Assembly (NCBI GenBank): GCA_021740905.1
Contig: JAIOYV010000011.1
Location: forward strand, 1-64,000
From: Bacteroidales bacterium
GTDB lineage: Bacteria; Bacteroidota; Bacteroidia; Bacteroidales; M50B96
Direction of reading: 5' to 3'
DNA: 64,000 nucleotides
Shown here: piece after piece, positions 7,545 to 39,095 of the stretch
How the letters are laid out: the number at the start of each line of letters is the position of its first letter
Numbering within the stretch: position 1 is the first letter of the stretch
Made by a program: the position numbers and the translations under genes
The notes under the pieces: generated by a model
Databases searched by the model: none
Told to the model about the DNA's origin: nothing
Seen by the model: only the letters and a program-made list of their open reading frames with translations

Positions 7545-10500
7545 CTACTCCACCACCATTTTCCAAACCCACTTCATTTCTTTTTGCTGAACCATCAGAA
7601 AATAAATTCCCGGCACAACTTTGCCCAGCCCTATTTCTTCTGATAGCTTTCCTTCTTTGGATGATATTTCTTTCCGATAAATTTCCTGCCCGGTCGAATT
7701 GAAAATGTGCAAATTCAAGTCATCCTTCGATTCCAATCTTCCCGATAGGTAAAAGTTACCCTTGTTTGGATTTGGGTAGATCTGAATTGGAAACTCCCCA
7801 TCCATTTCTTCAATATCAAAAGTGAAGATTTGCAATGTTGATGTATCTGATCCACATTGGTTGGCGGAAACCAAAGTTGCAGTGTACCACATATTTTGGT
7901 TTAAGACGGGGTAATCATGTTCGGGGTTGGCCTCGATTGAAATGGGCGAACCATCGCCAAAATCCCAGAAATAGTAGTAGGCATTCTGCGACTGGTTGAT
8001 GAAATTGACATGGTTGAAGGCCTCGAAGAAATTGAAAGCGGAGCTTACCGGTAGCTGGTTCGTTACCCAAACAGAGTCGACGGTGATGCACCCAAGAGTG
8101 TCGGTAAGGGTTAAAGTGTAGAGACCAACGGAGTCGATTATTGAGTAATCGTTGTTGTAGCCATTGCTCCAGGAGTAATCGTAGAAGGGGTAATTGCCGC
8201 CATCAAGTGACAGGTTTTGGTTGGGGCATTTGGTAGTGTCGGTGGGGAGGATGGAAATTGGTAGTGGATAAAAATTGATATATAATTCCACTGTGTCTTC
8301 AAGTTCGCAATTTGAAGTAGATACGGTAACCTGATAGGTTGAAGTACCGGAAACACTCAACCAATTGTTGCCTGATCCGTTTGACCATTGATAATTAAAT
8401 CCGGGATTGAAATCAACAATAATTGTATCATCCTGGCATATCGTGGTATCAAAGCCTGGAAAAAAAACCAATTCCTCATAGTTCACAGAAATAGTATCGA
8501 ACCAGTTGCAAAAGCTATCGGCCAATGAAATCTGGACAGAATATTCTCCTGGTTCAGTAATATGCAAAGCCGAATCCAAAATCCCTGTAGACCAGTAACC
8601 CAAAATATTCTGTGGCAACTGCAACATGCAACTTTCATTTGGGCAAAGTAAAGTGTCATCTCCTATATCTAAAACAAAATCATAAGCATATTGAACATCT
8701 ATCCCAACTATTTCAATCCCACAATTGGTATAAGACTCACAAGTGAAAATCCCTGTTGTGTCTGCATTGAAAGTTATATTATTGCCTGTTTCTATCAAAT
8801 TACCTGATGGATCAAACCATAAAGGGTTTAATGGGTTGTAACGCAAACAATAGTTTTTGGCATAAAATGGTGTTTCGTTTAAAGAATCTAACACATAAGC
8901 AATAGTCCCATCTGCATTTTGAATCCCGGATACCCCATAGCCATAGCCCCATAAATGACAAACAGGACCATCAATAATATTTACATCAATTAATCCAGAG
9001 CTTTCATAAAGTACTATTTGAAAGTTACCATGCTTTGCAGTACAGGAATAAAGGCTTATATCTAAATAATTTACAACCAATTTCCGCAATGGCGCATTTC
9101 CTGTCACATAATAACTAATAGAACCACTTATTTCCGGGTTCCAATCGCGGTAAAGTGCTAATATTGCATTTCTGGGTCTGGCAGGATCTGGGTTGGGAAG
9201 AGGTTCTGTTGACCAAGGATCTAAGCCGGAATTAGACAAAGGAGAAAAGCTTATCCACCCATTCGAGCCTGCATAAAATTCATTCACGGTGTCTCCAAAA
9301 AAAGCAAAATCGAATCCGATAGGAAATGGTCCCCAGTATTTATCATCCTGCCATTGTGTTGTTACGGGAGTGCCCTCAATCAAGCTATCAGGATTGAAAG
9401 AAGGGAATTGAATATCGTAATACAAACCAGGAACAGAATTCGGATGTGTTAAGAAAGAAGCATTTCCGTTTATCGGATAACCCGGGCAATAAGCTGTACT
9501 GATGGTGGCATAGAGAGTATTCGGAAGGTATTGAATCATGAATGAATCGGTTGCAACACATCCAAAAGTATCAACAATTGCTAGTTGATAGCTATCACTT
9601 GGCAAAAACTGAAAAAGGCTGTCGTGGATAGGAGAAAGAAAAGTGTTGCTATTGATGCTTTGAATATAGATGCTGTCCAAGTATTCCTCTTGTCCCATAC
9701 TAACAATGACCTTTCCTGTTGAATCGCTACAATAGGCATCGGTAACAGATAAAAAGTGAGAAACCGGATATTGATAAGATAAAGTTACCGAATCAATAAT
9801 TTGATCACATAAATCACTTACTGTAAAAGAGTAATAACCGGGTGTAAGACCAGTGATAAAACTCTCTGTACTTCCATTCGACCACAAATAATTAACCGGA
9901 GGGTTTGAAGCAATTATTTCAACCCCGGCAAACCCATTGTTTAGATTCACACAATCATAAATATCCATACTATCAAGGAAAACAGATAGTGGAGGAAATT
10001 CGGGGATTTCAAATTCAAAATTGGCATAGCAAAGATTGGAATCAACAATAGTTAGTGTATATAAACCAGGCAAAAGACTGTCAACATTCTGGGAGCTTTC
10101 GCTATTCGACCAAGAATACGTAAAAGGGGCAGTACCATTTGACACGCTAATATCAATTGCTCCCGGGGTTTGTGAACAGGGATCGGTTTGGATGATATGA
10201 GAAATCTCGACAAATAAACTTGTGTCTTCAACAAAAATAAAACTATCGGCAACAACACAGCCCGAACTATCGGTTACTTCAACCCAATACTCACCAGCTT
10301 GCGTAATTAGCTTTTGGCTATTGGAACTACCATCCCACCAATGATAAGTAAATGGCTGATTACCTCCAATTAGCATTGCTTTGGCCAGACTTGGCAAACA
10401 TCCATTTGTAGAATAATCTATATCAATATGCAAAGGGATTGGATTGACCAAAATACTATCAGTATGTACACATCCTATCGAATCGGAGACAGTAACATGA

Positions 10501-12227
10501 TATTGCCCTGCAAGCATGGAGTCTATAAATAAAACGGACACACCCGTACTCCAAAGAACGGAATAAGGAGGGCTACCGTTTTCAATTTCAAGGTACAAAG
10601 AACATATACTATCCGAACAGTGAATATCTTCAATAATTTGAGAATGAATTGGGTCGGGGCCGGATATCGACAGTGTTGCCGATTCAGTACAATTAAGATT
10701 ACCTGTTACTGTCACACTGTATGTTCCCATAGTTAATCCCCCAATATCTTCGATAGTTTCACCGATATTCCAAAGTATTGAATAAGGTGTAACCCCACCT
10801 GTAATAGCAAGGTCGATGGCATCGTACGAACAAGAGTCGTGCAGGTGAGTAAGCAAAATATCCATTATTGGGGAGATGCTTACCCAGATAGAATCGGTTT
10901 CGAAATACCCATCAACATGGGCTATGGTAACTGAATAGATCCCAGAAATTGGAGTATTTCCAGTGAAACTTATCGAATCGGCGGTACTTCCATTGCTCCA
11001 ATTAAAGGTCAACATTGAATCGGCAGCGTTTGCATAAGTATGTACTGAAATAGGACTACCGTCGCATATCATAAAGGTATCAAGATTAATTCCTGCATTA
11101 AGCTCATATACATCATTAATGGTTATGGTCATTGGCTGGTATCCATGAATACACGAGTCGTAAAACTTTAAAATCAAATCCTCAGAAGGTTCTACCAAAG
11201 TGTCAGCCAAAATAGAAATAGGATAGTTATAGGACATCGCCCCTGAAGGTAGGACAAGGCTGTCTGGAATAATAATATCAATAACCGGTGATGCAATACT
11301 TAAGGTATCAACTTCGACATAAACAATCATCGGAGAACTTAAAAATGTGCTATCGCTTCTTGACAAATGGAACCATGCCGGGTAATCTTCAAAAAATTCT
11401 CCATTTCCACCATACGCTGATTCTACATCAACTATAAAGTTTCTTTTCGAGTTATTTTGATCTTTTACACAAAAAAATAGTCCGCTGTCAATTTCCCTGT
11501 CTACAAGCTCTCCAATAGATGCTGAAACAAAGTATGTTTCATTTGGGACTACAGGTATCGAAATAGTAATAACATCCGTATATCCATCGTATTGGATAGC
11601 CTCATTAGAGGGGGTTGTACCGTTCCCATTGCTGTTGAAATATTGCACATTACTTATGCTATTAACGGTATATGCACCAACAAAAGATGAGGATCCAGGT
11701 AAGAGAGCAACATTTTGTTGGGTATAATTGCCCCCAAAAGGTTTTGGACCCCAAATAAATATTCCACATACATCAGCCAGATAATATCCTTCATATTCTG
11801 GATATTCATCCGAGGCATAAACAAATGATAAGGAATAAACCGTGTCGCATGATACAAATCGAAAATTACAACTTGAAGCATCCCATACAGGACCGGAATA
11901 AAAGTTACTTAAGGTTGTTCCTCCCAACTTAGAATTGTCTGTACTAATCGCCTCCGAATCATTTGGACCAACCGCATCAAAAGCATTGCCTGTAGTTAAC
12001 AATATTCCCCGTTCGAGTGGAAATGTTGTGCCCGATGCATTAAATGTTGCATAGGAATTGATCTTACCAAAAAACTGAAGGTACTCAATGCCAGTATGTT
12101 TGTTGTTAAGAGATTCAACCGCATTCTCATCAAAAACTTTGATGGCAGGATTAACACTTATTGACTGAGAATAAGATAGATTAAATCCAGCAATGAAAAA
12201 GATAATTAGAATGATATAATATTTCAT
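7545..12227 (-). CDS. T9SS-exported SprB-repeat surface protein, paralog 1
   Basis: A 1560-residue secreted protein. I take the ATG at 12227 as start because a good signal peptide (MKYYIILIIFFIAGFNLSYS|QS) follows at once; an upstream in-frame ATG at 12293 would add 22 unlikely residues. Rough order: choice-of-anchor L domain 25-260 (SCDTVYSLSFVYASDEYPEY), Calx-beta-like region to 370, Ig-like module, SprB-like repeats 445-820 comprising one D-A-B-C block, an M module to 905, the GPFPIGFDF domain 910-1145, further Ig-like modules, PKD domain about 1394-1480 (WDFGDGSPI) and a type A sorting domain (IYPNPNKGNFYLSG) ending KMVVE. The T9SS should cross it through the outer membrane and cleave the tail. 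Such proteins act as adhesins or gliding-motility surface proteins; which applies here is unknown. Confidence 0.88.
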   Translation of the reverse strand: MKYYIILIIFFIAGFNLSYSQSISVNPAIKVFDENAVESLNNKHTGIEYLQFFGKINSYATFNASGTTFPLERGILLTTGNAFDAVGPNDSEAISTDNSKLGGTTLSNFYSGPVWDASSCNFRFVSCDTVYSLSFVYASDEYPEYEGYYLADVCGIFIWGPKPFGGNYTQQNVALLPGSSSFVGAYTVNSISNVQYFNSNGNGTTPSNEAIQYDGYTDVITISIPVVPNETYFVSASIGELVDREIDSGLFFCVKDQNNSKRNFIVDVESAYGGNGEFFEDYPAWFHLSRSDSTFLSSPMIVYVEVDTLSIASPVIDIIIPDSLVLPSGAMSYNYPISILADTLVEPSEDLILKFYDSCIHGYQPMTITINDVYELNAGINLDTFMICDGSPISVHTYANAADSMLTFNWSNGSTADSISFTGNTPISGIYSVTIAHVDGYFETDSIWVSISPIMDILLTHLHDSCSYDAIDLAITGGVTPYSILWNIGETIEDIGGLTMGTYSVTVTGNLNCTESATLSISGPDPIHSQIIEDIHCSDSICSLYLEIENGSPPYSVLWSTGVSVLFIDSMLAGQYHVTVSDSIGCVHTDSILVNPIPLHIDIDYSTNGCLPSLAKAMLIGGNQPFTYHWWDGSSNSQKLITQAGEYWVEVTDSSGCVVADSFIFVEDTSLFVEISHIIQTDPCSQTPGAIDISVSNGTAPFTYSWSNSESSQNVDSLLPGLYTLTIVDSNLCYANFEFEIPEFPPLSVFLDSMDIYDCVNLNNGFAGVEIIASNPPVNYLWSNGSTESFITGLTPGYYSFTVSDLCDQIIDSVTLSYQYPVSHFLSVTDAYCSDSTGKVIVSMGQEEYLDSIYIQSINSNTFLSPIHDSLFQFLPSDSYQLAIVDTFGCVATDSFMIQYLPNTLYATISTAYCPGYPINGNASFLTHPNSVPGLYYDIQFPSFNPDSLIEGTPVTTQWQDDKYWGPFPIGFDFAFFGDTVNEFYAGSNGWISFSPLSNSGLDPWSTEPLPNPDPARPRNAILALYRDWNPEISGSISYYVTGNAPLRKLVVNYLDISLYSCTAKHGNFQIVLYESSGLIDVNIIDGPVCHLWGYGYGVSGIQNADGTIAYVLDSLNETPFYAKNYCLRYNPLNPLWFDPSGNLIETGNNITFNADTTGIFTCESYTNCGIEIVGIDVQYAYDFVLDIGDDTLLCPNESCMLQLPQNILGYWSTGILDSALHITEPGEYSVQISLADSFCNWFDTISVNYEELVFFPGFDTTICQDDTIIVDFNPGFNYQWSNGSGNNWLSVSGTSTYQVTVSTSNCELEDTVELYINFYPLPISILPTDTTKCPNQNLSLDGGNYPFYDYSWSNGYNNDYSIIDSVGLYTLTLTDTLGCITVDSVWVTNQLPVSSAFNFFEAFNHVNFINQSQNAYYYFWDFGDGSPISIEANPEHDYPVLNQNMWYTATLVSANQCGSDTSTLQIFTFDIEEMDGEFPIQIYPNPNKGNFYLSGRLESKDDLNLHIFNSTGQEIYRKEISSKEGKLSEEIGLGKVVPGIYFLMVQQKEMKWVWKMVVE

Positions 12228-12297
12228 AATATGTATCATTAGTAAGCTTTGGCCGAGACAATTTTTTTCTGCATTTCGTTGTATCGCATTCAATTTT

Positions 12298-12389
12298 TTC
12301 TTTGCGAACCTTGCGGTTTTCTCTTTGCGCTCATTGCTTTTTTTTTAACCGCAATGTACGCTAAGGTTTTTTACAAAGTACGCAAAGGG
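12298..12389. repeat. Imperfect palindromic intergenic repeat (CTTTGCG type)
   Basis: A left part with CTTTGCGAACCTTGCGG and a right part ending in TTTACAAAGTACGCAAAG are imperfect reverse complements around a run of T. A related sequence occurs at 19011-19048. This looks like a dispersed REP/MITE-like element of the genome. Confidence 0.55.
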
Positions 12390-12470
12390 TTATTCCATCA
12401 CCATCTTCCATACTCACTTATTTTCATTTTGCTGAATCATCAGAAAATAAATCCCCGGTGTGACTTTGCC
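12390..12470 (-). pseudogene. Orphan T9SS sorting-domain tail
   Basis: The minus strand reads GKVTPGIYFLMIQQNENK, stop, VWKMVME, stop: the last ~26 codons of the array's sorting domain with one internal TGA. No gene is attached upstream; instead the hairpin 12473-12505 touches the GKV codons and the tail of paralog 2 lies beyond it. It appears to be a displaced older tail. Confidence 0.85.
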
Positions 12471-12472
12471 AT

Positions 12473-12505
12473 ACTTACTTAGCATCTCCAAGATGCTTAG
12501 TAAGT
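12473..12505. repeat. Array hairpin, copy A
   Basis: ACTTACTTAGCATCT and AGATGCTTAGTAAGT form a 15-bp stem with one mismatch and a 3-base loop (CCA). It starts 7 bases past the stop codon of paralog 2 on the minus strand. No T-tract follows the stem, so it is not a standard intrinsic terminator. Confidence 0.9.
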
Positions 12506-12512
12506 TTACCTC

Positions 12513-13352
12513 CTACTCCACCACCATCTTCCACACCCACTTATTTTCTTTTTGCTGAACAATCAGAAAATAAATCCCCGGTGCAACTTTACCCAGCCTT
12601 ATTTCTTCTGATAAATTTCCTTCTGTTGATGATATTTCCTTCTGATAAATTTCCTGCCCGGTCGAATTGTAAATGTGCAGGTTCAAGTCATCCTTCGATT
12701 CCAATCTTCCCGATAGGTAAAAGTTACCCTTGTTTGGATTTGGGTAGATCTGAATTGGAAACTCCCCATCCATTTCCTCAATATCAAAAGTGAAGATTTG
12801 CAATGTTGATGTATCTGATCCACATTGGTTGGCGGAAACCAAAGTTGCAGTGTACCACATATTTTGGTTTAAGACGGGGTAATCATGTTCGGGGTTGGCT
12901 TCTGTTGAGATGGGTGATCCATCGCCAAAGTCCCAGAAATAATAGTAGGCATCCTGCGACTGGTTGATGAAATTGACATGGTTGAATGCTTCGAAGAAGT
13001 TGAAGGCAGAGCTTACCTCGGGTTGTTCAGTAACCAAAACGGAGTCGATACTGACACAGCCATTGTCATCTGTTATAGTTACAGTTAGCAAACCCAGCGA
13101 ATCAATAGCTACCGTACTTGAAATATTTCCATTACTCCAAAGATATTCATAAGTGGGTTCATTTCCTCCGTCAAGAATCAAGTTAGAATCGGAACATTTT
13201 GCGGTATCTGAGGGGAGAATGGTAACAGGAAGTGGCAAGAGAACAGGCGACAATTCGAGCGTATCTTCGAGATTGCAATTAGGTGAAGAAACGGTTAAAT
13301 TATAACTTACCGGGCCAGAAATTTCAACCCAATTGTTGGTCGATCCGTTTGA
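12513..13352 (-). pseudogene. Severed 3' part of T9SS paralog 2 (PKD and sorting domain)
   Basis: This segment continues the frame of the 13353-18977 gene without interruption after the in-frame TGA. It encodes the rest of an Ig-like module (SNGSTNNWVEISGP), a SprB-like module, the PKD domain (WDFGDGSPISTEANPEHDY) and an intact sorting domain ending KMVVE. There is no good start codon or ribosome-binding region of its own. Without it, paralog 2 has no T9SS signal. Its last 300 bases are nearly identical to the end of paralog 1. Confidence 0.85.
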
Positions 13353-16300
13353 TCATAGGTAAGAAAAAGCTGTGTCAAGTTCAATCAAAATGTTATCACC
13401 CTCACAAATCATAGTATCCAATCCGGCATAGTAATTCATGTTTTCAAACGAAATCTGGATGGTATCGAACCAGGTACATAATCCATCAGCAATAGAAAAA
13501 TAAGCCGAGTATTCGCCCGGCTGGATTACTTCAACCATATTGCCAGTTGTACCGGTAGACCATTGTCCCGAATAATTTTGGGGCAGTTGCAACAGGCCTG
13601 TATCACCAGGACAAAGAAGTTGATCGGGGCCAAAGAATTGTGGATAGTCATTTAGTATCGGAACACTTATCTCAACACTTTCAAACCCACAAAAGGTTTG
13701 TGCTTCGCAAAAGTAAATTGTGCTCGAATCAACATTAAAAGTAATTGTATCCCCTTGCCCTATTAGATTGCCGAAGGAATTGTACCAAGCAGGTTTTTGT
13801 GGATTGTACCTGACAGAATAATTAAAAACCTGAAAATTGGTATTATTAAAACCGGGTGGGGTGTAACCAATAGTCCCGGAGGCATTTTGAATACCCAATA
13901 CGCCTTTACCCGAATTCCAGTTCGAACATGACGGTCCGGCAATAATATTCACATCGATAATATCCGAGCCTTCAAAAAGGACTACCTGAAAAGTGCCTAC
14001 TATTGAACTACAAACATAAAGGGGAACATCGATAAAATTTATCACGAGTTTCCGGCTGGGTGCAGTGCCGGTTATGTAGTATTTTATTGAAGTGCCCGAG
14101 CCGGGTTGCCAATCGCGATATAAGGCAAATATCGCATTACGTGGCCGGGTTGGATCCTGGTTTGGAATCGAGTGGGTTGCCCAAGGGTCGTAAGTGGTGC
14201 TGGACAAGGGAGAAAAGCTCACCCAACCATTTGAACCAACGTAGAAGTTTGTGACTGAATCACCAAAAAAATTAAAATCGAAACCAATTGGAAATGGCCC
14301 CCAATAATGATCATCCGTCAAGGTTTCTGTAACAAGAGTCCCGCCTGAAAGTGACTCCTGATGAAAAGGAAGGATCTCGGTATTATAATTACTTCCGGGC
14401 ACAGGATATGTTGGCAATTGAAAGACAGTGCTTCCGGTTACCGGATATCCCTGGCAGAAAGCCGGACTAATTGATGGCGTCAATAAACTTGGAACCAATA
14501 GAATTTCAACCGATTCGGTGTATGAACAACCAAACGTGTCTATAACGGTGTAAGTATAGCTGGCTTCGGGGAGTGACTGAAAAATTGATTTTGCATCAGG
14601 AAAATAAATATCCCCAGTTATACCGTTTTGCAAATACATGCTATCTATCATATTCGTTGGATATATTAAAGCTTCAACCTTACCCAAAGAATCGTAGCAA
14701 TAAGAATCACCTACCTCAAGGGAAACTGACAATGAATACTGAATGTCTATGAATACAGAATCGACTTTTTCCATACACAGGTCACCCACTGTTACATAAT
14801 AGATGCCTGAAGAAAGATTCTGAATCATGCTTTCGGTTCCACCGTTCGACCACATATAACTCACTGGTGGGGCCGCCGATAAAGCAAGGACCTGGGCCGA
14901 GCCATTACCAGTTGTCTGACAATTGGTAACCGGGCTTTTATTTATAGAATGTAACAATGTGATTTCGGGAAATGCCGGCACCGAGAAATCATAAACAGAA
15001 TAACAATAATTGGCATCGGTTAAAGTAAGTGAATAATCGCCTGGAAAAAGACTGTCAATGTTTTCAGTGGTTTCCCAGGTCGACCAAATGTAAGTAAAAG
15101 GAGCCATGCCATTTGTTACACTATAATCAGTTGTTCCAGGAGTAGGTGAACAGGGATCGAGAATTAGATTTTCGTTTACTTCAAGAAAAGCGCTTGTGTC
15201 AGCAACCACGGAAAATGTGTCAATTATTGTACAGCCCATAATATCGTGCACTTTCACCCAGTAAAGTCCTGCCTGTCCCAGTATAGTCTGAAAACCATAA
15301 TTTGTAGTTGACCAGTATGCACCATAAGGTGGCGTACCCCCTATCATTTCAACACTTGCCATGCTCGGGACACAACCTGCAGTTGAATAATTTATATTGA
15401 TATCGAAATAGATTGGGTTAAAGCCCATGAAACTGTCAGTCGAAACGCAGCCAAAAGCATCGGTAATTGTGACATAGTAATCGCCTGCAGGAACCGAATC
15501 AAGAATTGCCTCGGTGCTCCCGGTATTCCATAGATAAGTGTATGGAGGAGTGCCGTTGCTTACATTTACGGCTAGCCGTCCAAAGGAATCGTAGCAATGA
15601 AGAAGATTGATGATGTTTGCAGAAATTGGCACGTAAGGTTCAATCACAATAGAAGCAACTGTATCCAAACACATATCACTTATAGTTACATAGTAAATTC
15701 CAGGGCTAAGATTTTCTGCAATACTGTCGGTACTTCCTGTAGACCAAAGAAAACTAAGAGGTGGGGCAATTGTAGATGCTGATACCACTGCGCTTCCATT
15801 GCTCAAGCCCTGGCAATCGGTCACAGGGTTGGTGGTCAAAGTATATGAGATTGATACCCCTGGTACTGGCTGATTGTAGAAGTTGGAAACAGCCCAGCAA
15901 TAATTGCCATCAGTAATCGTAACCCTGTAGTAGCCTTGTACAAGACTATCAATTTCCTGGGTTGTTTCCCCGTTCGACCATAAAAAAGTAAAAGGTGAAA
16001 GCCCATTGGTGATATTAATACCAAGCGTTACAGGAGTAGGAGAACAAGGATGTACTATAATGTTTTGTGTAAATTGAAGAGATATGCTTGGGTCGGCAAC
16101 AATAGTAAAAGTGTCAGTTACATTACAACCCAAAGCATCTTGCACTTTTATCCAGTATGTTCCGGGTAAAATATGTATTTCAGGCGTATTGTAATTATTA
16201 CTCCAAAGATAGGTGTACGGAGGGCTTCCTCCACTAACTTCAACATTAGCATAGCTCCACATACAACCTGCGGTAGAATAATTTAGTGCGTCAATCGTTA

Positions 16301-18977: not shown

Positions 18978-19010
18978 GGTAGTCGATTATGTTTAATTTC
19001 TATTCAGATT

Positions 19011-19195
19011 TTTTCTTCGTGTTCCTTGTGATTTTCCCTTTGTTGCGCATCAATAACATCTGTCCTGTCCGATTCTAATAAGTTTTCAATTTCGGTTGTG
19101 GTCAACAACGAAGGAGAACTTATTTGAATGGATTGCGCATACCCGGTTATACATAAAAAAAACAGAATGAGGAAAGAGAATAATAGAGTCTTCAT
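19011..19195 (-). pseudogene. N-terminal relic of another T9SS array gene
   Basis: From the ATG at 19195 the frame encodes a signal peptide (MKTLLFSFLILFFLCITGYAQS) and about 28 residues (SSPSLLTTTEIENLL...TDVIDAQ) that line up with the mature N-terminus of paralog 3 (YPSLVSDTMLVKEIL...TEVFNIQ). It then runs into the CTTTGCG-type intergenic repeat and ends. It is the remains of a lost paralog that lay between paralogs 3 and 2, although a short exported peptide could still be made. Confidence 0.65.
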
Positions 19196-19203
19196 AGCTT
19201 TTG

Positions 19204-19231
19204 CAAATTTACAATTGGTATTAGACACAAA
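19204..19231 (-). promoter_or_regulatory. Candidate promoter of the N-terminal relic
   Basis: TAAATTTG (19204-19211 on the minus strand) fits the -7 box TAnnTTTG and TTTG (19228-19231) the -33 box; the spacing of 16 is slightly short. It lies 9 bases before the relic's ATG and could now transcribe paralog 2. Confidence 0.4.
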
Positions 19232-19335
19232 AGACTTTAATATAATTTAAAGGTTGCCTAAAATTAGAGGCTTTGAATTATAAAATTCAAAATCAACAGA
19301 CAATACTTGACCCGAAATAGACGGGAATCAATTTA

Positions 19336-19415
19336 TCACTCCACCACCATCTTCCAAACCCACTTATTTTCTTATTGCTGAAGCATCAGAAAATACAAAC
19401 CGGTTCTACTTTGCC
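19336..19415 (-). pseudogene. Second orphan T9SS sorting-domain tail
   Basis: The minus strand reads GKVEP, a frameshift, then LYFLMLQQ, stop, ENKWVWKMVVE, stop: a decayed copy of the terminal ~26 codons of the array's sorting domain. As at 12390-12470, it begins at the GKV codons directly beside the hairpin that follows the neighbouring gene. Confidence 0.85.
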
Positions 19416-19417
19416 AT

Positions 19418-19450
19418 ACTTACTTAGCATCTCCAAGATGCTTAGTAAGT
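19418..19450. repeat. Array hairpin, copy B
   Basis: Same 33-base hairpin as copy A (15-bp stem with one mismatch, CCA loop), 7 bases past the stop codon of paralog 3. Copies A and B are identical for about 70 bases across the junction, from the orphan tail through the hairpin into the gene's last codons. Confidence 0.9.
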
Positions 19451-19457
19451 TTACCTC

Positions 19458-23903: not shown

Positions 23904-23925
23904 GGTACGTTTTTAAGATGTCAAA

Positions 23926-23948: not shown

Positions 23949-23963
23949 ACCCACATAACATTT

Positions 23964-28667: not shown

Positions 28668-28773
28668 AGCAATTGAATTAATGGTAATCAGTAAAATGCA
28701 ATTCCAAACTTAGACAAATTATTGCTCATTTGCGTTGTATGGTTTAATCCCTTTTTTGACCTTCCTTCTGCAT

Positions 28774-28806
28774 ACTTACTAAGCATCTCCAAGATGCTTA
28801 GTAAGT
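28774..28806. repeat. Array hairpin, copy C (perfect)
   Basis: ACTTACTAAGCATCT and AGATGCTTAGTAAGT form a perfect 15-bp stem with a CCA loop, 7 bases past the stop codon of paralog 5. Unlike copies A and B, no orphan tail lies beyond it. Confidence 0.92.
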
Positions 28807-28813
28807 TCACATC

Positions 28814-31800
28814 CTATTCCACCACCATCTTCCACACCCACTTATTTTCTTTTTGCTGAACAATCAGAAAATAAATCCCCGGTGCAACTTTGCCCAGCTT
28901 AATTTCTTGTGATAGTTTTCCTTCTGTCGATGATATTTTCTTCCAATAAATTTCCTGCCCCGTGGAATTGAAAACACTCAATTGCAAGTTATCTTTCGAG
29001 TCCAAACTTCCCGATAGGAAAAAATTACCCTTGTTAGGGTTGGGGTAAATTTGAAGCGGAGATTCTCCGTCCATTTCCTCAATATCAAAAGTAAAGATTT
29101 GCATCATCGAAGTATCCGAGCCACACTGGTTTGCGGAAACCAAAGTGGCGGTGTACCACATATTTTGGTTCAAGACAGGGTAATCATGTTCGGGGTTGGC
29201 TTCTGTTGAGATAGGCGAACCATCGCCAAAGTCCCAGAAATAGTAGTAGGCATCCTGCGACTGGTTGATGAAATTGACATGGTTGAAGGCTTCGAAGAAT
29301 TGGAAGGCGGAGCTAACCGGTAGCTGGTTCGTTACCCAAACAGAATCGACGGTGATGCAGCCAAACGTATCAATAAGGGTTAAAGTGTACAATCCAACCG
29401 AATCAATGATAGTGTAGTCGTTGTTGTAACCATTGCTCCAATAGTAATCGTAGAAGGGGTAATTACCACCATCGAGAGCCAGGTTTTGGTCGGGACATTT
29501 GGTGGTGTCGGTAGGGAGGATTAAATATGGGGATTGAAAATTATCAATTATAAAATCAATTGTATCAGGCACATCACAAATTCCATTCGATACGGTAACA
29601 GCATAGGTGGTGCTACTTGACAGGCTGAGCCAATTGTTAAACGTAAGGTTTTCCCATTGGTAAGAGAAAGCGGTGTCGAAAAGATAGAATACGGTGTCGC
29701 CCGGACAAACTATGGTGTCGTAAGTATTCTGGTAATTAAATTCGTAGTAACCGACAAAAACTGAATCGTACCAGTTGCAATTGCCATCGGCAAGAGAAAG
29801 ATGAACGGAATATTCTCCTTGCTGCGTGACACAAAGACTCGAATCCGTTAAGCCAGTTGACCATTCTCCCACAAAATCCTGAGGTAAATCCAATTGAAGT
29901 GTATGACCAGGACATATTATGGTATCACTCCCAAGATCGAGGGAAAAATTATAAACATAAGGGATTTCAAACTCAATAGATTCAAGCCCACAATAAGTAG
30001 TTTGTTCGCAGGCATAAAATCCTGGAAGTATGGATCCAAAATCTATGGTCGATCCCCGGCCAATAACAACTCCTGTGGGATTATACCAGGTAGGTGTCAA
30101 TGGTCTGAAGCGTACAGAAAAGTCATAGATCTCAAAATTTGTATTGTTACACCCAGGCACTGTATATGCAATAGTACCACTGGCATTTTGAATTCCAATA
30201 ACCCCTCTTCCTGAGTTCCAGCTTGGGCAAGTTGGCCCGTTTACGATATTTACATCAACAAAATTACTACTTTCGTGAAGTACTACCTGGAATGAGCCAT
30301 AAATTGAATCGCAAATCGAAGAATATAAGCTAACTTGGTAAAAATTAACAACTAATTTTTGATTAGGTACAGTACCAGTAACTTTATATTTTATATGTCC
30401 ATGTATGCCGGGATTCCAATCACGGTATAAAGCAAAGATTGCATTGCGTGGATTCCATGGACTTGTATAAGGAACAGAATGAGGAAGAAAAATGTCATTG
30501 GATGGGCTTACTATTGGGAAAAAGCTTACCCAACCATTACAACTAACATAAAACTGTGATACCGTATCACCAAAATATTCAAAATCGAAACCTATTGGAA
30601 ATGGTCCATAATATACATCATCAGATAAATATGATATAACCGACGTCCCTCCAGCAAAAGGTTCGTAATTAAAAGACGGATATTCAAGTAAATAGTAAGG
30701 ATAAATATTGGGATATATCTGTGATTGACTATTAGCTTCACCAGAAACGGGGTAACCCGGGCAATATGCAGTATCAATATCAACGGCAAGCATGTTTGGA
30801 AAAAAATCGATATGAACACTATCATAATTGATGCAGCCTAAAGTATCGTGTGAAGTCAAGAGATAATCGCCGGCTGGTAGTGAATCAATTGGGTCATTGT
30901 TACCAGGGTAATAAATATAGTTGGTTGAATCAGCCAGGTTTGTCAGAAACATACTCATCGGTATTGATGACCATGGGTAAAAAAAACCAACAGAGACCAT
31001 TCCTGTTGAGTCATTGCAATAAGCATCAGTTATCTGTAAAAAATGACCTACCGAAAATTGATATTCAACCTGTAAAGTATCTACATATTCGCACCAACTA
31101 TCACTTACCGTAACATAGTATTCACCTGTACTTAGGTTATTAAGTATACGAGTTGTTTGTCCTGAAGACCAAAGAAACGCTACTGGTGAAGAAGCGGAAA
31201 CATTGAATACTATTGCACTTCCATTATTAAGGTTATGGCAGTCTGTTGCTGGGTTTGCGTGAGATGAAAAAATAAGGCTGGGATGCATATTAATAGATAT
31301 CGAATCGATTTGACTGAAACCATTAACATGACTAATTGTAACATAATACATTCCTGTCATCTGACCTGTCATTGTAAACGAAAGACTACTACTGGTGCTA
31401 CCATTGCTCCACAAATAAGAGACCAGACTGTCGGCGGCATTGGCGAATGTAGTAATAGTGCCAGGACTTCCATCGCAAATAATAATACTATCCTGGTCGA
31501 TACCCGCTTCAAATACATAATTATCGAAAATCCGCGCTTCTATTTCCTGCCCTCCGTAAGGACATGTATCCTGGCAAGTAAGATATATCCACTCATCATT
31601 CTCCGGCAATCCATCATCAATAATAGTTAAAGGAAAATCCATCGTCATGCATCCTGCCGTGATAATAATACTATCAGGTAATGCAATATAGTCCATACCC
31701 GATGTGGCACTTAAAGTATTGCTGCCAACTACAAGTGGAACAACCATCGAAAAATTCAAATCGGCACTATCGAGCTTGGTAAAACGCAACGAGGCAGGAT

Positions 31801-32644
31801 ATCCCTCGAACAACTGGTTGACAAATCCATAGGCCGATTCGAGCGTCACGGAAAATAAGTTTTCGGTAAATGCTTCGGAATTGGCACAAAAAAATATGCC
31901 ACTATCGATAATGTGATCACCGGCATCGGCCACTCCAACAAAAACATGATAAACTTCGCCAGGAATTATTGGAATATGAACATCCATCACCACCGTATAT
32001 CCATCGTACTGAAGTGTATTGTTTGAAGGAGTAGAACCCGTTCCATTTGAAACATAATAAATGGAATTTGATTGGGCATTAACAGTATGTGCAGTGACAG
32101 AAATATTTGTTCCTGGGACAAGTGCGAAATTTGTATTCACGTAATTTCCGCCCGATGGATTTGGCCCGCTTACCAAAATTCCGAATACATCGTTGAAAGA
32201 AGCATTAACCCATTCGGGGTATTCATCCGAGCCGAACACGTACGATAAAGCGTACACGGTATCGCAAGAAATTATGTCGAATTCTAAAATGGAGGCATCA
32301 TTTGTATTTTGCGGGATCATTGCATTTAATTCAGGGCTGGACGGGCCTGCATTATTATAGCTTATGCCTGATGCATAGTTAGGGCCAATTGCATTTATTG
32401 CTTTTCCACTTGTCAATAATATACCACTGTGAAGTGAAAAATTAGAGTTGCCCTTTGTGAAAACACCATACGAAATTGGATCGCCTGTAAATTGAATATT
32501 AAAGACTTCTGTTCCCGAATTGTCAAGTAGTTCCTTTATAAGCATCGTATCCCCAGCCAAAGAAGTATTTACAGTAATTGGCTGCGACCAAGATTGAAAA
32601 AAGAGGAACAAACAAAAGATTGAAAATATAAAACGATATTTCAT
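28814..32644 (-). CDS. T9SS-exported surface protein, paralog 5 (shortest)
   Basis: At 1276 residues this is the smallest array member. It has a signal peptide (MKYRFIFSIFCLFLFFQSWSQ), choice-of-anchor L domain about 25-270 (SCDTVYALSYVFGSDEYPEW), Calx-beta-like region, an Ig-like module, then only one C-type SprB unit (about 451-528) in place of a D-A-B-C block. One M module, the GPFPIGFDFEYFG domain about 610-850, Ig-like modules, the PKD domain near 1108-1195 and the sorting domain (IYPNPNKGNFFLSG) ending KMVVE follow. It is 85 bases after paralog 6, so co-transcription is likely. It shows the minimal architecture on which the longer paralogs add repeat blocks. Confidence 0.9.
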   Translation of the reverse strand: MKYRFIFSIFCLFLFFQSWSQPITVNTSLAGDTMLIKELLDNSGTEVFNIQFTGDPISYGVFTKGNSNFSLHSGILLTSGKAINAIGPNYASGISYNNAGPSSPELNAMIPQNTNDASILEFDIISCDTVYALSYVFGSDEYPEWVNASFNDVFGILVSGPNPSGGNYVNTNFALVPGTNISVTAHTVNAQSNSIYYVSNGTGSTPSNNTLQYDGYTVVMDVHIPIIPGEVYHVFVGVADAGDHIIDSGIFFCANSEAFTENLFSVTLESAYGFVNQLFEGYPASLRFTKLDSADLNFSMVVPLVVGSNTLSATSGMDYIALPDSIIITAGCMTMDFPLTIIDDGLPENDEWIYLTCQDTCPYGGQEIEARIFDNYVFEAGIDQDSIIICDGSPGTITTFANAADSLVSYLWSNGSTSSSLSFTMTGQMTGMYYVTISHVNGFSQIDSISINMHPSLIFSSHANPATDCHNLNNGSAIVFNVSASSPVAFLWSSGQTTRILNNLSTGEYYVTVSDSWCEYVDTLQVEYQFSVGHFLQITDAYCNDSTGMVSVGFFYPWSSIPMSMFLTNLADSTNYIYYPGNNDPIDSLPAGDYLLTSHDTLGCINYDSVHIDFFPNMLAVDIDTAYCPGYPVSGEANSQSQIYPNIYPYYLLEYPSFNYEPFAGGTSVISYLSDDVYYGPFPIGFDFEYFGDTVSQFYVSCNGWVSFFPIVSPSNDIFLPHSVPYTSPWNPRNAIFALYRDWNPGIHGHIKYKVTGTVPNQKLVVNFYQVSLYSSICDSIYGSFQVVLHESSNFVDVNIVNGPTCPSWNSGRGVIGIQNASGTIAYTVPGCNNTNFEIYDFSVRFRPLTPTWYNPTGVVIGRGSTIDFGSILPGFYACEQTTYCGLESIEFEIPYVYNFSLDLGSDTIICPGHTLQLDLPQDFVGEWSTGLTDSSLCVTQQGEYSVHLSLADGNCNWYDSVFVGYYEFNYQNTYDTIVCPGDTVFYLFDTAFSYQWENLTFNNWLSLSSSTTYAVTVSNGICDVPDTIDFIIDNFQSPYLILPTDTTKCPDQNLALDGGNYPFYDYYWSNGYNNDYTIIDSVGLYTLTLIDTFGCITVDSVWVTNQLPVSSAFQFFEAFNHVNFINQSQDAYYYFWDFGDGSPISTEANPEHDYPVLNQNMWYTATLVSANQCGSDTSMMQIFTFDIEEMDGESPLQIYPNPNKGNFFLSGSLDSKDNLQLSVFNSTGQEIYWKKISSTEGKLSQEIKLGKVAPGIYFLIVQQKENKWVWKMVVE

Positions 32645-32729
32645 AGCACATATTTTTAGAGGTAACTTTCGATTATATAATCTCAGATCATTAATATTAA
32701 TTCCGGGTTGTTTGAAAAACTCATTTTCT

Positions 32730-35700
32730 TTACTCCACCACCATTTTCCACACCCATTTATTTTCTTGTTGCTGAACCATCAGAAAATAAATGCCCGGTG
32801 CAACTTTCCCCAGCTCTATTTCTTCCGATAGCTTTCCTTCTTTGGATGATATTTCTTTCCGATAAACTTCCTGCCCGGTTGAATTGAAAATGCTCACCTT
32901 CAAATCGTCCTTCGATTCTATATTTCCCGACAGGAAAAAATTACCCTTGTTAGGGTTGGGGTAAATCTGAATAGGAGATTCCCCATCCATTTCCTCAATA
33001 TCAAAAGTAAAAATTTGCATCGTAGAAGTATCCGAGCCACACTGGTTTGCGGAAACCAAAGTGGCGGTGTACCACATATTTTGGTTCAAGACAGGGTAAT
33101 CATGTTCGGGGTTTGCTTCGTTAGAAATGGGTGATCCATCGCCAAAGTCCCACAAATAGTAGTAGGCATTCTGCGACTGGTTGATGAAATTGACATGGTT
33201 GAAGGCTTCGAAGAATTGGAAGGAAGAATTGACAGGGGCTTCCTCGCTCACCCAAACTGCATCGACGATTTGGCATCCTAAAATATCGGTGATGGTAACC
33301 AGGTACAAGCCAAGTGTGTCGATGATAGCCGTGTCTGTAAGGAAACCATTGTTCCACGTGTAGGAGTAGGATGGCTCGTTTCCGCCATCTAACAAAAGAC
33401 TTAACCCAGGGCACTTTGTTGTATCATCGGGGAGGACTGTTACGGGGAGCGGATAAAATCCTGGCGACAATTCAACGGTATCTTCCAAATCGCAATTTGC
33501 ATTTGAAACGGTAACTTGAAAGGTGGAAGGTCCGGAAATACTCAACCAATTAGTGTTCGATCCATTGGTCCATTGATAAGAAAAAGCCGTATCAAATTCA
33601 ACCACAATGGTATCTCCCGGACATATCATAGTATCGAGGCCGGGAAAGTAATCAAATACTTCATAGTTGATAGAAACTGTATCGGACCAATTGCAGTAGC
33701 CGTTGGCCAGGGAAACTTGCACCGAATATTCGCCCGGCTGACTAACCCACAATGCCGTATCAGTAAGCCCTGTCGACCAATCGCCGGAAATTGTTGGGGG
33801 CAATTGCAATAAAACCGTTTCGTAAGGGCAAAGCAATTGGTCGGGTCCCAGGTCAAGTGTGAAATCATAAAAAAACGGAACATCTATTTCAACGGTTTCA
33901 AGTCCGCAGCCAGTATAAGCTTCGCAAGTATATGTCCCGGGAAGGTATGTGCCAAAATTAACTGCATCGCCTTCTCCAATAAAAGTTCCTATTGGATCGT
34001 ACCACAAGGGTTTTTGGGGATTGTACCGCACCGAATAATTGGATAACTGGAAATTGGTATTATTATAACCTTGTACAGGATAAGCCACAGTCCCATCAGC
34101 ATTTTGAATCCCCAATACTCCATTGCCACTGTTCCATGAGGGGCACGAAGGACCGTCAATAATATTCACATCAACTATATCGGAAGTTTCATAGAGTACC
34201 ACCTGGAAAGTGCCAAGACTATTTGTACAGCTAAACAAAGGAACATCAACATAATTTACAACCAGTTTTCGAAAGGGGGCTGTTCCGGTTACATAATATT
34301 TGATGGAGCCATTCCCACCAGTTCCAGGATACCAGTCGCGGTACAAGGCAAAAATAGCATTGCGGGGTCGGGAAGGATCGGGATTAGGTATAGGCATGGT
34401 TATCCAGGGGTCATAAGTTGAACTGGATAAAGGCGAAAAACTGACCCAGCCATTGGAGCCTACATAAAATTGTGTAACTACGTTTCCGAAGAAAGAAAAA
34501 TCGAAACCAATGGGAAATGGCCCCCAATAATAATCATCGATCAAGTTTGGTGTTATGAGTGTACCGCCCATAAGTATTTCGTGATTGAACACAGGGAATT
34601 GGATATCATAAAGCGAACCAGGCATTGAATTTCCCGTGACCAGCACAGTAGCATTGCCAGTTACCGGATAACCCGCACAGTACGCCGTGTCGATGGTAGC
34701 ACTTAACAAATTGGGGAAATATTCGATTTGAAGAGGGTAGGTCACCGAACATCCAAAGGTATCGACCAAAGTAAACGTATAATCATCTTGTGGAAGCCAT
34801 TTGAAAAGGCCACTGGCATCGGGATAAAACAACCCGCCGGTAAGATTGCTTTGAAGGTACATGCTGTCCAAAAATTCATACGTGTTCAACAAAATCTGAA
34901 CAGTACCTGTAGAGTCGCTGCACAAAGCATCGGTGACATCCAGCGAGAAGGAGGTGGGAAAAACAACCCCGACAAATACAGAATCGGTGGCAGTACATCC
35001 ATACATGTCCACTATTGTGAATACATAACTGCCTGATGGAAGAAAATGAAAGATGCCGGTTGAATCAGGGTAAAAAATTCCGCCGGAGAGATTATTTTGC
35101 AGGTACATGGTGTCCAGTAGTTCAACCGGGTTGACAAAAACCTGCACACTTCCTGTAGAATCATTGCAATTCGCATGGGTAACATTTAGGTTGAAAGAAG
35201 AAAGAATTTCAATCCCCACAAAAACAGAATCACTATTTGCGCATCCAAAGGTATCGACCAATGTGAAAAGGAAATTGCCCGAAGGAAGCGAATAAAAAAT
35301 ACCGGACGAATCGGGAAAATAGAATTCGCCACCGGAAGTGTTTTGCAAAAACATACTATCCACTAAACTTGGAGGATTCACTGAAACGCTAACCGTTCCC
35401 ACCGAATCGTTGCAATGGGTATTGGTGCTGGCAAGGCTTAAGGCAAGAGGATTTTGATAGACGATATTTACAAAATCCACAAACTCTTCGCATTGATCGC
35501 TGATGGTAACATGAAAAATACCCGGGCTAAGGTTTTGGATCAGGCTGTCAGTACTTCCGTTCGACCATTGGTAATTAACCGGAGATACTAGCGAAAAAGC
35601 AGTTGCCACAGCCGAGCCATTGTTCAATCCAATACAATCGGTTGCCAGAGTATGGCTAAGGGTATAACTCAGCGTTGTGACTGGCGAAACGGGGATGTTG

Positions 35701-38603
35701 AATTCGTACACGCTATAGCAATAGTTGGCATCGGTAATTGAAAGCGAATAAGAGCCTGGCGCAAGACTGTCCACATCCTCTGTTGTTTTCCAGTTCGACC
35801 ACAGATAAGTAAATGGAGCCGCCCCGTTTACTATTGAAATGTCGATTGTACCGGGGGTAGTGGAGCAAGGGTCGAGGATAATATTTTCGCTGATCTCCAA
35901 AAAACTACTCGTATCGGCCACTATATTGAAAGTGTCGATAATGGAGCAACCGGTTAAGTCCTGCACTTTTACCCAGTATTCTCCGGCTTGCTGAATCAGG
36001 GTTTGAGCTCCATAAGTGTTAGTCGACCAAAACACCCCATAAGGAGGCGTACCGCCACTTGCCTGAACGTTTGCTACACTGGGAATACAGCCTGCGGTAG
36101 AGTAGTTTAGGTTGATTTCGAGGGGAATAAGTGAATATCCTATTAGGCTCGCAGTTGCCATGCAACCATAATCATCAATAACAGTAACAAAGTAGTCACC
36201 ACCTGAAACCGAATCGATCTGAGCATCTGTACTTCCGGTATTCCAAAGATATGTGAAAGGAGGGGTGCCATTATCAATATTCAGTTCTAAATCCCAAGTA
36301 CCTGCAAGGCAATCGTCATCGGGAATAATTGCTATAGATAGGAGGGCAGGTGGTTCAATGATAACTGAATCTAAAATCACACTACACAAATCACTAATAG
36401 TAAAATAATAGGTTCCGGGTGATAGATCATCAATCGAGGCAAGTATACTTCCATTCGACCAATTATAATTGACCTGGCCATAATGAGATTGTATAAAAAT
36501 TTCTACAAATCCATTATTCATAGTAGCACAGTTAGTTACTGATGAATAATTGAACGAGTACGACAAGTTGGTCAACGGATCGATTGTGATAGGAATTTGC
36601 GACCAAAAACAATAATTGGCATCGGTTACACTTACGGAATAATTATATGGCCAGAGATTTTCAATATCCTCGGTTGTCATAAAATTAGACCACTTGAATG
36701 AATACGGACTGGTGCCATTTACAATTGTAAGGTTTATTGATCCGGAGAAAGGTGTACAACCCAGACCAATTTCATAATCAATTTGAAGAGACAAGCTGGT
36801 ATCTTGAACAATGAAAAACGAATCGGAAACAACACAACCACTGGCATCTTCAATGGATATCGAATAGATTCCATCTTGTGTAATAACTTTATTGTTGTCG
36901 GTTTGTAGGCCCGGTATCCATTCGTACGAGTAGGGTGGTGTTCCTCCTGTTGCTGTAGCGATTGCCACACTTGGGATGCACCCGGCATTTGAGTATTCAA
37001 GACCCATGCTTAATGGAATAGGATTAAAATTCACTACACTATCAACGGTTAAACATCCCGAATTATCAAAAACTGTTAGCCAGTAATCACCAGCAAAAAC
37101 CGGGTTGAGAATAGCAGTAGTGGCACTTGTACTCCATTGAAAAAGATAGGGAGGGCTGCCATCAGTAGCCATAACCGCAAATATTCCTGTGGTATCAATA
37201 CACGACTTTTGTATCGCAATACTTGTATTTACCTGACCAGAGAATAACTCGTCAGAAACATAGTCTACCATCGAAAATCCATCGACATGAGAAATCGTTA
37301 CGGAATAGGTCGATAAAAAAATGGAAACACCCGAAACAATTAAACTGTCGGCTGTACTTCCATCGCTCCAAAGATAAGTAAGCATTGAATCGGCAGCATT
37401 GGCAAAGGTGTGAAGGGTAACCGTATTGCTAATACAATTTGAATACGTTTCTTGTGCAATACCGGCATCAAACATAAATGCGTCCTGAATTATTGCCTGG
37501 ATAATTGGTCCACCACTTGGACAGGTATCACTAAAATTAACCGACAACCATTCATTGGGTTCACTTACTCCATCTGCATAAATTGTAAGTGGATAATCGA
37601 AAGTCATCGACCCAGCCGGAATGACTATACTCCCGGGTAATGCTTGATAATCTACACCAGGGTTGGCATTACCTGCATTCGTAAGAACCTCCAGGTTAAC
37701 CACAAAGTTGTTGTTGAGAATTGCACTATCTGTTTTCTCAAAATGCAAATGTGCAGGATATCCCTCGAACAATTGATTGGCGAAACCATAAGGGGATTCT
37801 AATGAAACCGAATATTCGCTGATATGCAAAGTGCTTTGATCAGCACAAAATAAAATGCCACTGTCAACATTACTATCTGTTGCATCTCCAATAACCACAG
37901 CAACATGATAAACTTCACCAGGTACAATCGGTATCTTGCAAGTTATAGGGATTGTATACCCATCGTACTGTAAAGCTTCATTATTTGAAACATAACCATC
38001 TCCGTTAAAGAAAAAATAGTCAGAGTTGGTAGTATTATTAACATTATTAATGCAAATCGGTAATGTTGTTTGCGGGATTACGGCAAAATTTTGATTAACA
38101 TAAGGAGATGAATTTGGATTTGGCCCAGAAACAAAAATACCACATCCATCATTGTAATTACTATTTACACTTTCTAAGTATTCTTCCGAACCAAAAACCA
38201 ATTTAAGAAGATAAAAATTATCACACGAAACAAAATCGAATTCCAATACCGAAGCATCATGTGTTGATTGAAATAATAGGCCATTAAGTAATAAATTATC
38301 AGGGCTGTTATTATTATAAAAGATACCGGTAGAATTATTTGGTCCCACAGCATTTATTGCCTTGCCATTTGTAAGGATGATTCCCCGTGGTAAATCAAAA
38401 TTTGAATTCTCTTTGGTAAAAATTCCATACGAAATCGGATCGCCGGAAAATTGAATATTAAAAATATCGGTGTAAGGATTGTCCAGGAGTTCCTTAATAA
38501 GCATTGTATCTGTTGCAAGGGATGTATTAACAGCTATAGGTTGAGCTATAACATTATAAGAGACCAGGATGCAGAATGTAAACAGGGTTAAGGTATGTTT
38601 CAT
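32730..38603 (-). CDS. T9SS-exported SprB-repeat surface protein, paralog 6
   Basis: The longest intact member, 1957 residues, and first in the direction of transcription. It has a signal peptide (MKHTLTLFTFCILVSYNVIAQ), choice-of-anchor L domain about 25-275 (SCDNFYLLKLVFGSEEYLES), Calx-beta-like region, an Ig-like module, two SprB D-A-B-C blocks at about 457-1056, three M modules in tandem to about 1300, the GPFPIGFDFSFFG domain about 1300-1545, Ig-like modules, PKD domain about 1790-1875 and the sorting domain (IYPNPNKGNFFLSG) ending KMVVE. The many paired Cys residues suggest disulfide-stabilised beta modules. T9SS export to the outer surface is expected; the ligand is unknown. Confidence 0.9.
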   Translation of the reverse strand: MKHTLTLFTFCILVSYNVIAQPIAVNTSLATDTMLIKELLDNPYTDIFNIQFSGDPISYGIFTKENSNFDLPRGIILTNGKAINAVGPNNSTGIFYNNNSPDNLLLNGLLFQSTHDASVLEFDFVSCDNFYLLKLVFGSEEYLESVNSNYNDGCGIFVSGPNPNSSPYVNQNFAVIPQTTLPICINNVNNTTNSDYFFFNGDGYVSNNEALQYDGYTIPITCKIPIVPGEVYHVAVVIGDATDSNVDSGILFCADQSTLHISEYSVSLESPYGFANQLFEGYPAHLHFEKTDSAILNNNFVVNLEVLTNAGNANPGVDYQALPGSIVIPAGSMTFDYPLTIYADGVSEPNEWLSVNFSDTCPSGGPIIQAIIQDAFMFDAGIAQETYSNCISNTVTLHTFANAADSMLTYLWSDGSTADSLIVSGVSIFLSTYSVTISHVDGFSMVDYVSDELFSGQVNTSIAIQKSCIDTTGIFAVMATDGSPPYLFQWSTSATTAILNPVFAGDYWLTVFDNSGCLTVDSVVNFNPIPLSMGLEYSNAGCIPSVAIATATGGTPPYSYEWIPGLQTDNNKVITQDGIYSISIEDASGCVVSDSFFIVQDTSLSLQIDYEIGLGCTPFSGSINLTIVNGTSPYSFKWSNFMTTEDIENLWPYNYSVSVTDANYCFWSQIPITIDPLTNLSYSFNYSSVTNCATMNNGFVEIFIQSHYGQVNYNWSNGSILASIDDLSPGTYYFTISDLCSVILDSVIIEPPALLSIAIIPDDDCLAGTWDLELNIDNGTPPFTYLWNTGSTDAQIDSVSGGDYFVTVIDDYGCMATASLIGYSLIPLEINLNYSTAGCIPSVANVQASGGTPPYGVFWSTNTYGAQTLIQQAGEYWVKVQDLTGCSIIDTFNIVADTSSFLEISENIILDPCSTTPGTIDISIVNGAAPFTYLWSNWKTTEDVDSLAPGSYSLSITDANYCYSVYEFNIPVSPVTTLSYTLSHTLATDCIGLNNGSAVATAFSLVSPVNYQWSNGSTDSLIQNLSPGIFHVTISDQCEEFVDFVNIVYQNPLALSLASTNTHCNDSVGTVSVSVNPPSLVDSMFLQNTSGGEFYFPDSSGIFYSLPSGNFLFTLVDTFGCANSDSVFVGIEILSSFNLNVTHANCNDSTGSVQVFVNPVELLDTMYLQNNLSGGIFYPDSTGIFHFLPSGSYVFTIVDMYGCTATDSVFVGVVFPTSFSLDVTDALCSDSTGTVQILLNTYEFLDSMYLQSNLTGGLFYPDASGLFKWLPQDDYTFTLVDTFGCSVTYPLQIEYFPNLLSATIDTAYCAGYPVTGNATVLVTGNSMPGSLYDIQFPVFNHEILMGGTLITPNLIDDYYWGPFPIGFDFSFFGNVVTQFYVGSNGWVSFSPLSSSTYDPWITMPIPNPDPSRPRNAIFALYRDWYPGTGGNGSIKYYVTGTAPFRKLVVNYVDVPLFSCTNSLGTFQVVLYETSDIVDVNIIDGPSCPSWNSGNGVLGIQNADGTVAYPVQGYNNTNFQLSNYSVRYNPQKPLWYDPIGTFIGEGDAVNFGTYLPGTYTCEAYTGCGLETVEIDVPFFYDFTLDLGPDQLLCPYETVLLQLPPTISGDWSTGLTDTALWVSQPGEYSVQVSLANGYCNWSDTVSINYEVFDYFPGLDTMICPGDTIVVEFDTAFSYQWTNGSNTNWLSISGPSTFQVTVSNANCDLEDTVELSPGFYPLPVTVLPDDTTKCPGLSLLLDGGNEPSYSYTWNNGFLTDTAIIDTLGLYLVTITDILGCQIVDAVWVSEEAPVNSSFQFFEAFNHVNFINQSQNAYYYLWDFGDGSPISNEANPEHDYPVLNQNMWYTATLVSANQCGSDTSTMQIFTFDIEEMDGESPIQIYPNPNKGNFFLSGNIESKDDLKVSIFNSTGQEVYRKEISSKEGKLSEEIELGKVAPGIYFLMVQQQENKWVWKMVVE
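34730..35450 (-). repeat. Three tandem M modules in paralog 6
   Basis: Three copies of a unit of roughly 80 residues with the pattern C-x-DS-x-G, LxDxMYLQ, FYPDxSGxF, LPSGxxxFTxVDxxGC follow one another. The other paralogs carry one such unit at this place, so this is a local expansion. Confidence 0.85.
35435..37230 (-). repeat. Two tandem D-A-B-C SprB blocks in paralog 6
   Basis: Two successive blocks of about 895 bp, starting near 37,220 and 36,320, repeat the same order of four SprB unit types seen three times in paralog 2 and once in paralogs 1, 3 and 4. Confidence 0.8.
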
Positions 38604-39052: not shown

Positions 39053-39095
39053 CGTTTAATTTTTCAGGCAATTACTTGCCAGGAAGCTTGTCCTA

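Follow-up and report, generated by a model that had tools for sequence, protein, structure and literature searches.

Introduction

Few proteins of the Bacteroidota are as large, or as poorly understood, as the SprB-type giants. The SprB of Flavobacterium johnsoniae, a gliding adhesin, has a type B sorting domain. Here we describe an array of giant T9SS proteins in a window of a Bacteroidales genome (by window we mean the whole stretch of 64,000 nucleotides that was analysed). These proteins resemble the SprB-repeat (PF13573) T9SS giants in their SprB units, T9SS tail, very large size and the presence of many paralogs per genome. They differ from them by the typed units arranged in a fixed order, by a tail of type A instead of type B, and by the choice_anch_L head. 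In contrast to the SprB of F. johnsoniae, they have no identifiable type B sorting domain: TIGR04131 matched neither paralogs 1, 2, 5 and 6 nor the separate ORF encoding the tail of paralog 2.

Three other kinds of proteins provide useful comparisons. Duplication units made of several domains have long been known, e.g., the seven nebulin repeats (Bjorklund et al. 2006, PMC1553488). The array shares with them growth in steps of several domains and a peak of similarity at a fixed lag above one (lags 4 and 8 in paralog 2), but its unit consists of four SprB units, is bacterial, and varies as the same block across tandem paralogs. Periscope proteins (PMC8201768, PMC9704523) also have a head, a stalk of folded repeats and a C-terminal anchor, and their length depends on the number of repeats. 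Their repeats are highly similar, whereas those of the array are old and diverged, and here it is between paralogs that length differs. Finally, the array proteins have the tandemly repeated stalk domains of fibrillar adhesins (PMC8286594), and no known adhesive domain is found among their Pfam matches.

The array and the layout of its proteins

Six long ORFs, all on the minus strand, run from position 38603 down to 7545, between ispD (39560-40231) and purD (5969-7237). The host genome comprises 6.54 Mb in 160 contigs, and the window corresponds to contig 30. The ORFs are tandem paralogs, which we numbered by position: paralog 1 (7545-12293, with the true start probably at an ATG near 12227, Met at residue 23), paralog 2 (12513-18977, interrupted), paralog 3 (19458-23903), paralog 4 (23964-28667), paralog 5 (28814-32644) and paralog 6 (32730-38603), the gene of the array that is transcribed first. 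A strong terminator-like hairpin (12 pairs) lies on the minus strand at 39026-39053, between ispD and paralog 6; given this position upstream of paralog 6, the array is probably transcribed from a promoter of its own. The counts of promoter-like and terminator-like sequences, compared with shuffles, showed no useful excess.

The domains follow one order: the choice_anch_L head comes first, then the string of Ig-like SprB units, a globular middle domain that is conserved, further Ig-like domains, a PKD domain and lastly the type A sorting tail. In paralog 1, for example, the succession is choice_anch_L, Ig-like, the SprB units, the globular domain, Ig-like domains, PKD and the T9SS type A tail. 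The choice_anch_L N-terminus was found with NCBIfam in all four paralogs scanned (1, 2, 5 and 6). Pfam identified PKD and the type A tail in paralogs 1 and 3-6, and the type A sorting domain (TIGR04183 / PF18962) is above the cut-off in the same proteins; for paralog 2 these regions are found only in the separate downstream ORF. TIGR04183 itself matches paralogs 1, 5 and 6 and the tail ORF of paralog 2, while CHU_C stayed under the cut-off in the Pfam scans of the paralogs. SprB (PF13573) was matched in five of the six proteins, with scores above the curated cut-off of 28 bits in paralogs 1, 2, 4 and 6 and of 26.7 bits in paralog 3; the Pfam scan of paralog 5 gave no SprB match. The host genome encodes the translocon protein SprA (SprA_N above the cut-off, E 4e-177) and contains at least 150 SprB matches.

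The first-pass annotation described the domains before and after the repeats as constant, which fails for paralog 2. An in-frame TGA (13353-13355), at a position occupied by Trp in all five other paralogs, ends its main ORF (13353-18977) and severs the last Ig-like part, the PKD and the sorting domain, which lie in a separate ORF of 246 residues (12513-13253). The TGA is followed by about 280 stop-free codons, and the similarity of the tail is normal. It could be a sequencing error, the mark of a young pseudogene or a site of readthrough. If it is real, paralog 2, the longest of the six, seems unable to be sorted and may not be exported; the three blocks that we assign to it below are a statement about the gene. 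Between paralogs 2 and 1 there is also a vestige of a type A tail, short and interrupted by one TGA (12393-12476), which may be left over from a lost copy or from a partial duplication. A dispersed fragment of a seventh copy, with stops, is found on contig 80 of the host genome (locus L155, 12726-13923). It is 76% identical to the end of paralog 4 and is a pseudogene piece.

Units of six types form an ordered block

We cut the SprB-like units at the first conserved cysteine and built a maximum-likelihood tree of them. Four unit types had been proposed, with the expectation that units of one type from different genes would cluster together. They do so in clear clades, and each of the four types forms its own (UFBoot: D 98, A 97, B 84, C 90), but the types are six in all, because F (97) and E (96) are also monophyletic. 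Typing with profiles that left one gene out at a time was correct for 43 of the 44 units, the exception being the diverged E of paralog 3. The units are mostly spaced by 71-77 residues.

The general architecture is F?-(DABC)0-3-E1-3, i.e., an optional F, up to three whole blocks, and one to three E. Paralog 1 is F-DABC-E (F 10626-10838, block 9738-10625, E 9513-9737), and paralog 4 has the same composition (F 27060-27272, block 26166-27059, E 25941-26165), with the first Cys missing from its E. Paralog 2 is F-DABC-DABC-DABC-E (F 17382-17594; blocks 16497-17381, 15603-16496 and 14706-15602; E 14481-14705), paralog 3 is DABC-E (block 21618-22511, E 21393-21617), and paralog 6 is DABC-DABC-E-E-E (blocks 36318-37208 and 35421-36317, triple E 34704-35420). 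The exception is paralog 5, with C-E (30800-31246; C 31025-31246, E 30800-31024). The F unit, ahead of the block, is thus present in paralogs 1, 2 and 4 and absent from paralogs 3, 5 and 6, whereas the E unit, behind the block, is found in all six, with three copies in paralog 6. The whole-block counts are those claimed in the first-pass annotation: none in paralog 5, one in paralogs 1, 3 and 4, two in paralog 6 and three in paralog 2. Paralog 5 was said to have only a C unit; it does lack a whole block, but it also retains an E.

The order D-A-B-C is indeed fixed. The adjacencies D>A, A>B and B>C are kept in 30 of the 30 possible cases in the window and two relatives (see below), when 20,000 within-gene shuffles reached at most 17 of them. 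In family members, D, A and B units never occur alone, and a DABC run was absent from the 1019 units that we typed in 42 long SprB ORFs unrelated to the array. In paralog 2, the similarity between units peaks at lag 4 (z 5.5) and at lag 8 (z 4.5).

For types A to D, units of the same type are 39-44% identical and units of different types only 24-29%. This would fit a scenario in which expansion by blocks of unlike units was favoured because neighbours then stay dissimilar and misfolding between them is avoided, in line with the observation that adjacent domains are usually less than 50% identical in large multidomain proteins (PMC8201768). However, each of the three adjacent E units of paralog 6 shares 51-54% identity with the E unit nearest to it, and neighbours are the most similar units (best lag 1) in the SprB arrays L138, L139, L149, L164, L167 and L169. 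We regard this scenario as improbable. The triple E itself expanded one unit at a time, independently of the block.

Whole units explain protein length

We subtracted from each protein the sizes of its variable units: 297 residues per block, 71 for F, 74 for C and 82 per extra E. This leaves 1192 residues in paralog 1 (1560-297-71, starting the count at residue 23, the likely Met), 1192 in paralog 2 (2154-891-71, ignoring the in-frame stop), 1184 in paralog 3 (1481-297), 1199 in paralog 4 (1567-297-71), 1202 in paralog 5 (1276-74) and 1199 in paralog 6 (1957-594-164). Since the remainder is 1184-1202 residues in all paralogs, the number of units explains the variation in length within about ten residues. 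The block of 297 residues corresponds to the higher-order unit of ~300 residues that had been proposed. The accompanying claim that size follows the number of blocks holds in that block multiples subtract out, but the presence of F and the number of E vary too. As these vary singly, the block is not the sole step size.

Distribution of the block and of other unit periods

We searched with a block profile four genomes of the family and then 393 from the order and 395 from the class. In the family genomes, the eight blocks of the window scored 414-471 bits, those of two relatives (genomes G002 and G003) scored 328 and 249 bits, and ordinary SprB arrays scored from about 191 bits down. Outside the family, nothing exceeded 213 bits in the genomes of the order and class. 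We considered and rejected a wide distribution of the block, given this drop from 249 bits to at most 213. The carriers are thus three genomes: the host and the two relatives, which belong to two other genera of the same family. A search seeded from the near-identical tail retrieved one distant locus in Saprospiraceae, whose units fit none of the types.

Each relative has one typed block, and the order D-A-B-C, for which relatives were the proposed check, is kept in both. Using profiles made from the window only, the units of G002 were typed as D-A-B-C-E with 98/79/59/80/57 bits, against 42/29/33/35/13 for the next-best types; those of G003 were typed as F-D-A-B-C with smaller margins. The six types remained monophyletic when both relatives were added to the tree. 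The protein of G002 has ~950 residues and a signal-peptide-like start, soon followed by D-A-B-C-E, without the choice_anch_L head. The protein of G003 is head-F-D-A-B-C, without E. The occurrence of one block in each of G002 and G003 suggests, within this set of three genomes, that a single block is ancestral.

A second tandem array is found in three family genomes (L077 7825-15999 on host-genome contig 87; also L074 and L075). In it, the choice_anch_L head and the globular domain of the middle region, whose identity to that of paralog 6 reaches 62%, each have a gene of their own, and these genes lie side by side. That they are fused in the window and separate neighbours there suggests that the two work together.

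The first-pass annotation knew of no described higher-order unit of this kind. Units of several domains are, as mentioned above, long known, and we found multi-unit periods in 5 of 36 other long SprB arrays of the host and other genomes (2, 3, 4, 4 and 16 units), a fraction that does not estimate a frequency because the arrays were chosen by SprB matches or block similarity. The strongest period is of three units, in an ORF of 5352 residues on host-genome contig 61 (L137, 3770-19825; z about 10 at lag 3, and also lag 6), whose units are up to 98% identical. An ORF of 6285 residues in another genome (L157, 116-18970 of G097 contig 198) has a period of 16 units with identical units, and is a better candidate than the window for recent duplication of a long block. 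Our literature search found no paper on higher-order SprB units.

Age and history of the blocks

Pairwise identities between blocks are 32-57% (with the relatives included, the minimum falls to 30%), and synonymous sites are saturated along the proteins (pS about 0.75). The last ~170 residues, which comprise the PKD and the sorting tail (e.g., 32730-33245), are the exception: their DNA is ~84% identical, with pS of 0.42-0.47 against ~0.75 elsewhere. The tail thus looks to have been homogenised between paralogs more recently than the rest. Identities of just 32-57% between blocks indicate an old divergence and not a switching repeat. This bears on the idea that the number of blocks changes rapidly within a population to alter reach, as in Periscope proteins, whose layout of head, repeated stalk and C-terminal anchor is similar (PMC8201768). 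Such switching requires highly similar repeats, which is at odds with this divergence and saturation, and tandem DNA repeats were not found in the block regions; we think it very improbable. The same divergence is too great for an assembler to have collapsed or multiplied blocks, and the same ordered block is found in independent genomes. Wrong counts of blocks or genes are hence barely credible, even if the genome is fragmented in 160 contigs, paralog 2 has an in-frame stop, and all tails are ~84% identical in DNA.

The first blocks of paralogs 2 and 6 pair in the tree (UFBoot 92-93), and their last blocks are the closest of all block pairs (57% identity). These pairings suggest that the block was duplicated before paralogs 2 and 6 split. 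Paralog 4 groups with the gene of G003 (support 99), suggesting that some paralogs are older than the split of the genera. The trees of the N-terminal and post-repeat regions conflict, since paralog 6 is placed with paralog 3 in the former and with paralog 2 in the latter. This is expected if paralogs swapped segments, and points to a mosaic history in which the exact events are uncertain; some supports in the block tree are weak (42-71).

The scenario that we favour would start from one ancestral gene with F-D-A-B-C-E, which gene duplication would have turned into tandem paralogs. Units of like type lie one block apart, and recombination between them would then add or remove whole blocks. The line of paralogs 2 and 6 would have gained extra blocks in this way, and paralog 5 would have lost F-D-A-B. 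With an ordered ancestor and recombination a block apart, the fixed order is mainly a matter of inheritance and does not require selection.

Alternatively, D-A-B-C could be an obligate structural super-unit, with specific junctions D-A, A-B and B-C, whose order is kept by selection as well as by descent. The order is kept in three genera at 30-40% identity, and the lack of lone D, A or B units is what a super-unit would produce. In D and A, the stretch following the second Cys (last strand and linker) approaches the core in conservation (0.38 vs 0.46 and 0.34 vs 0.40), a hint, from sequence conservation, of selection on the order; it is much less so in B and C (0.22 vs 0.45 and 0.23 vs 0.44). 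However, paralog 5 has C alone of the block, F and E vary singly, and one ancestral order followed by in-register recombination predicts the same pattern. Furthermore, the visible independent events that changed blocks are few and insufficient to show a constraint. We find an obligate super-unit unlikely. The related proposal that the block is a structural quantum, i.e., that with type-specific junctions it is the smallest unit that can be added and reach changes in steps of about four Ig-like domains, seems to us a shade more doubtful. In summary, descent is favoured over selection as the cause of the fixed order, even if the evidence separates the two poorly.

Structure and proposed role

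The predicted structure of D-A-B-C-E, which answers the suggestion that one block be modelled, is all beta and multi-domain (mean pLDDT 81.6). Its pTM of 0.39 means that the model supports the folds of the domains, not their relative positions or a straight rod. A model of 1181 residues of paralog 5 (pLDDT 34.5) was set aside, and the structural reading covers D-A-B-C-E. The best fold matches of this region are chains of Ig-like domains, the first being the grappling hook protein GhpA of Aureispira (Foldseek E 5e-13). VIA-align comparisons with GhpA (PDB 9flp, 9flw and others) gave Z of 8.4-10.1 for the best six chains, with rmsd of 16-23 over 278-347 residues. GhpA is also a giant protein secreted by the T9SS (PMC11205867), but it has no significant sequence match to the array, and the fold match may reflect the shared Ig-like chain alone. 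The sequence search of the PDB returned matches only for the PKD region (collagenase, an endoglucanase), the block being marginal (E 0.0025).

The modelled Ig-like chain is compatible with a stalk. The first-pass annotation had suggested a length-varying stalk or adhesin, and the stalk part of this proposal fits the model, whereas ongoing variation in length does not fit blocks of such low identity and saturated pS. Type A tails are covalently anchored to surface lipopolysaccharide (PMC9143113). If the tail is anchored at the surface, the string of SprB units is most likely a spacer that sets the distance of the N-terminal head from the cell. The reach would go from about 2 units in paralog 5 to 14 in paralog 2, and because the several lengths are encoded by separate fixed genes, a cell could display mixed reaches. 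The protein of G002 has a block without the choice_anch_L head, which implies that the block need not hold out a head. It may have another role, e.g., binding of its own.

Taken together, the array is probably an old family of T9SS surface proteins with an Ig-like stalk, derived from an F-DABC-E ancestor by duplication and loss of whole blocks, with the SprB string acting as a spacer. The pattern itself is genuine, ancient and passed on by descent, and it has the look of a variable-length spacer, not of a new kind of system. The family is a small, clean case: the identity, the order and the copy number of its units can all be read off and given an age, and the differences in length between its paralogs turn out to consist of whole units. 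It provides a system to ask whether selection or mere inheritance sets the order of domains in long stalks.
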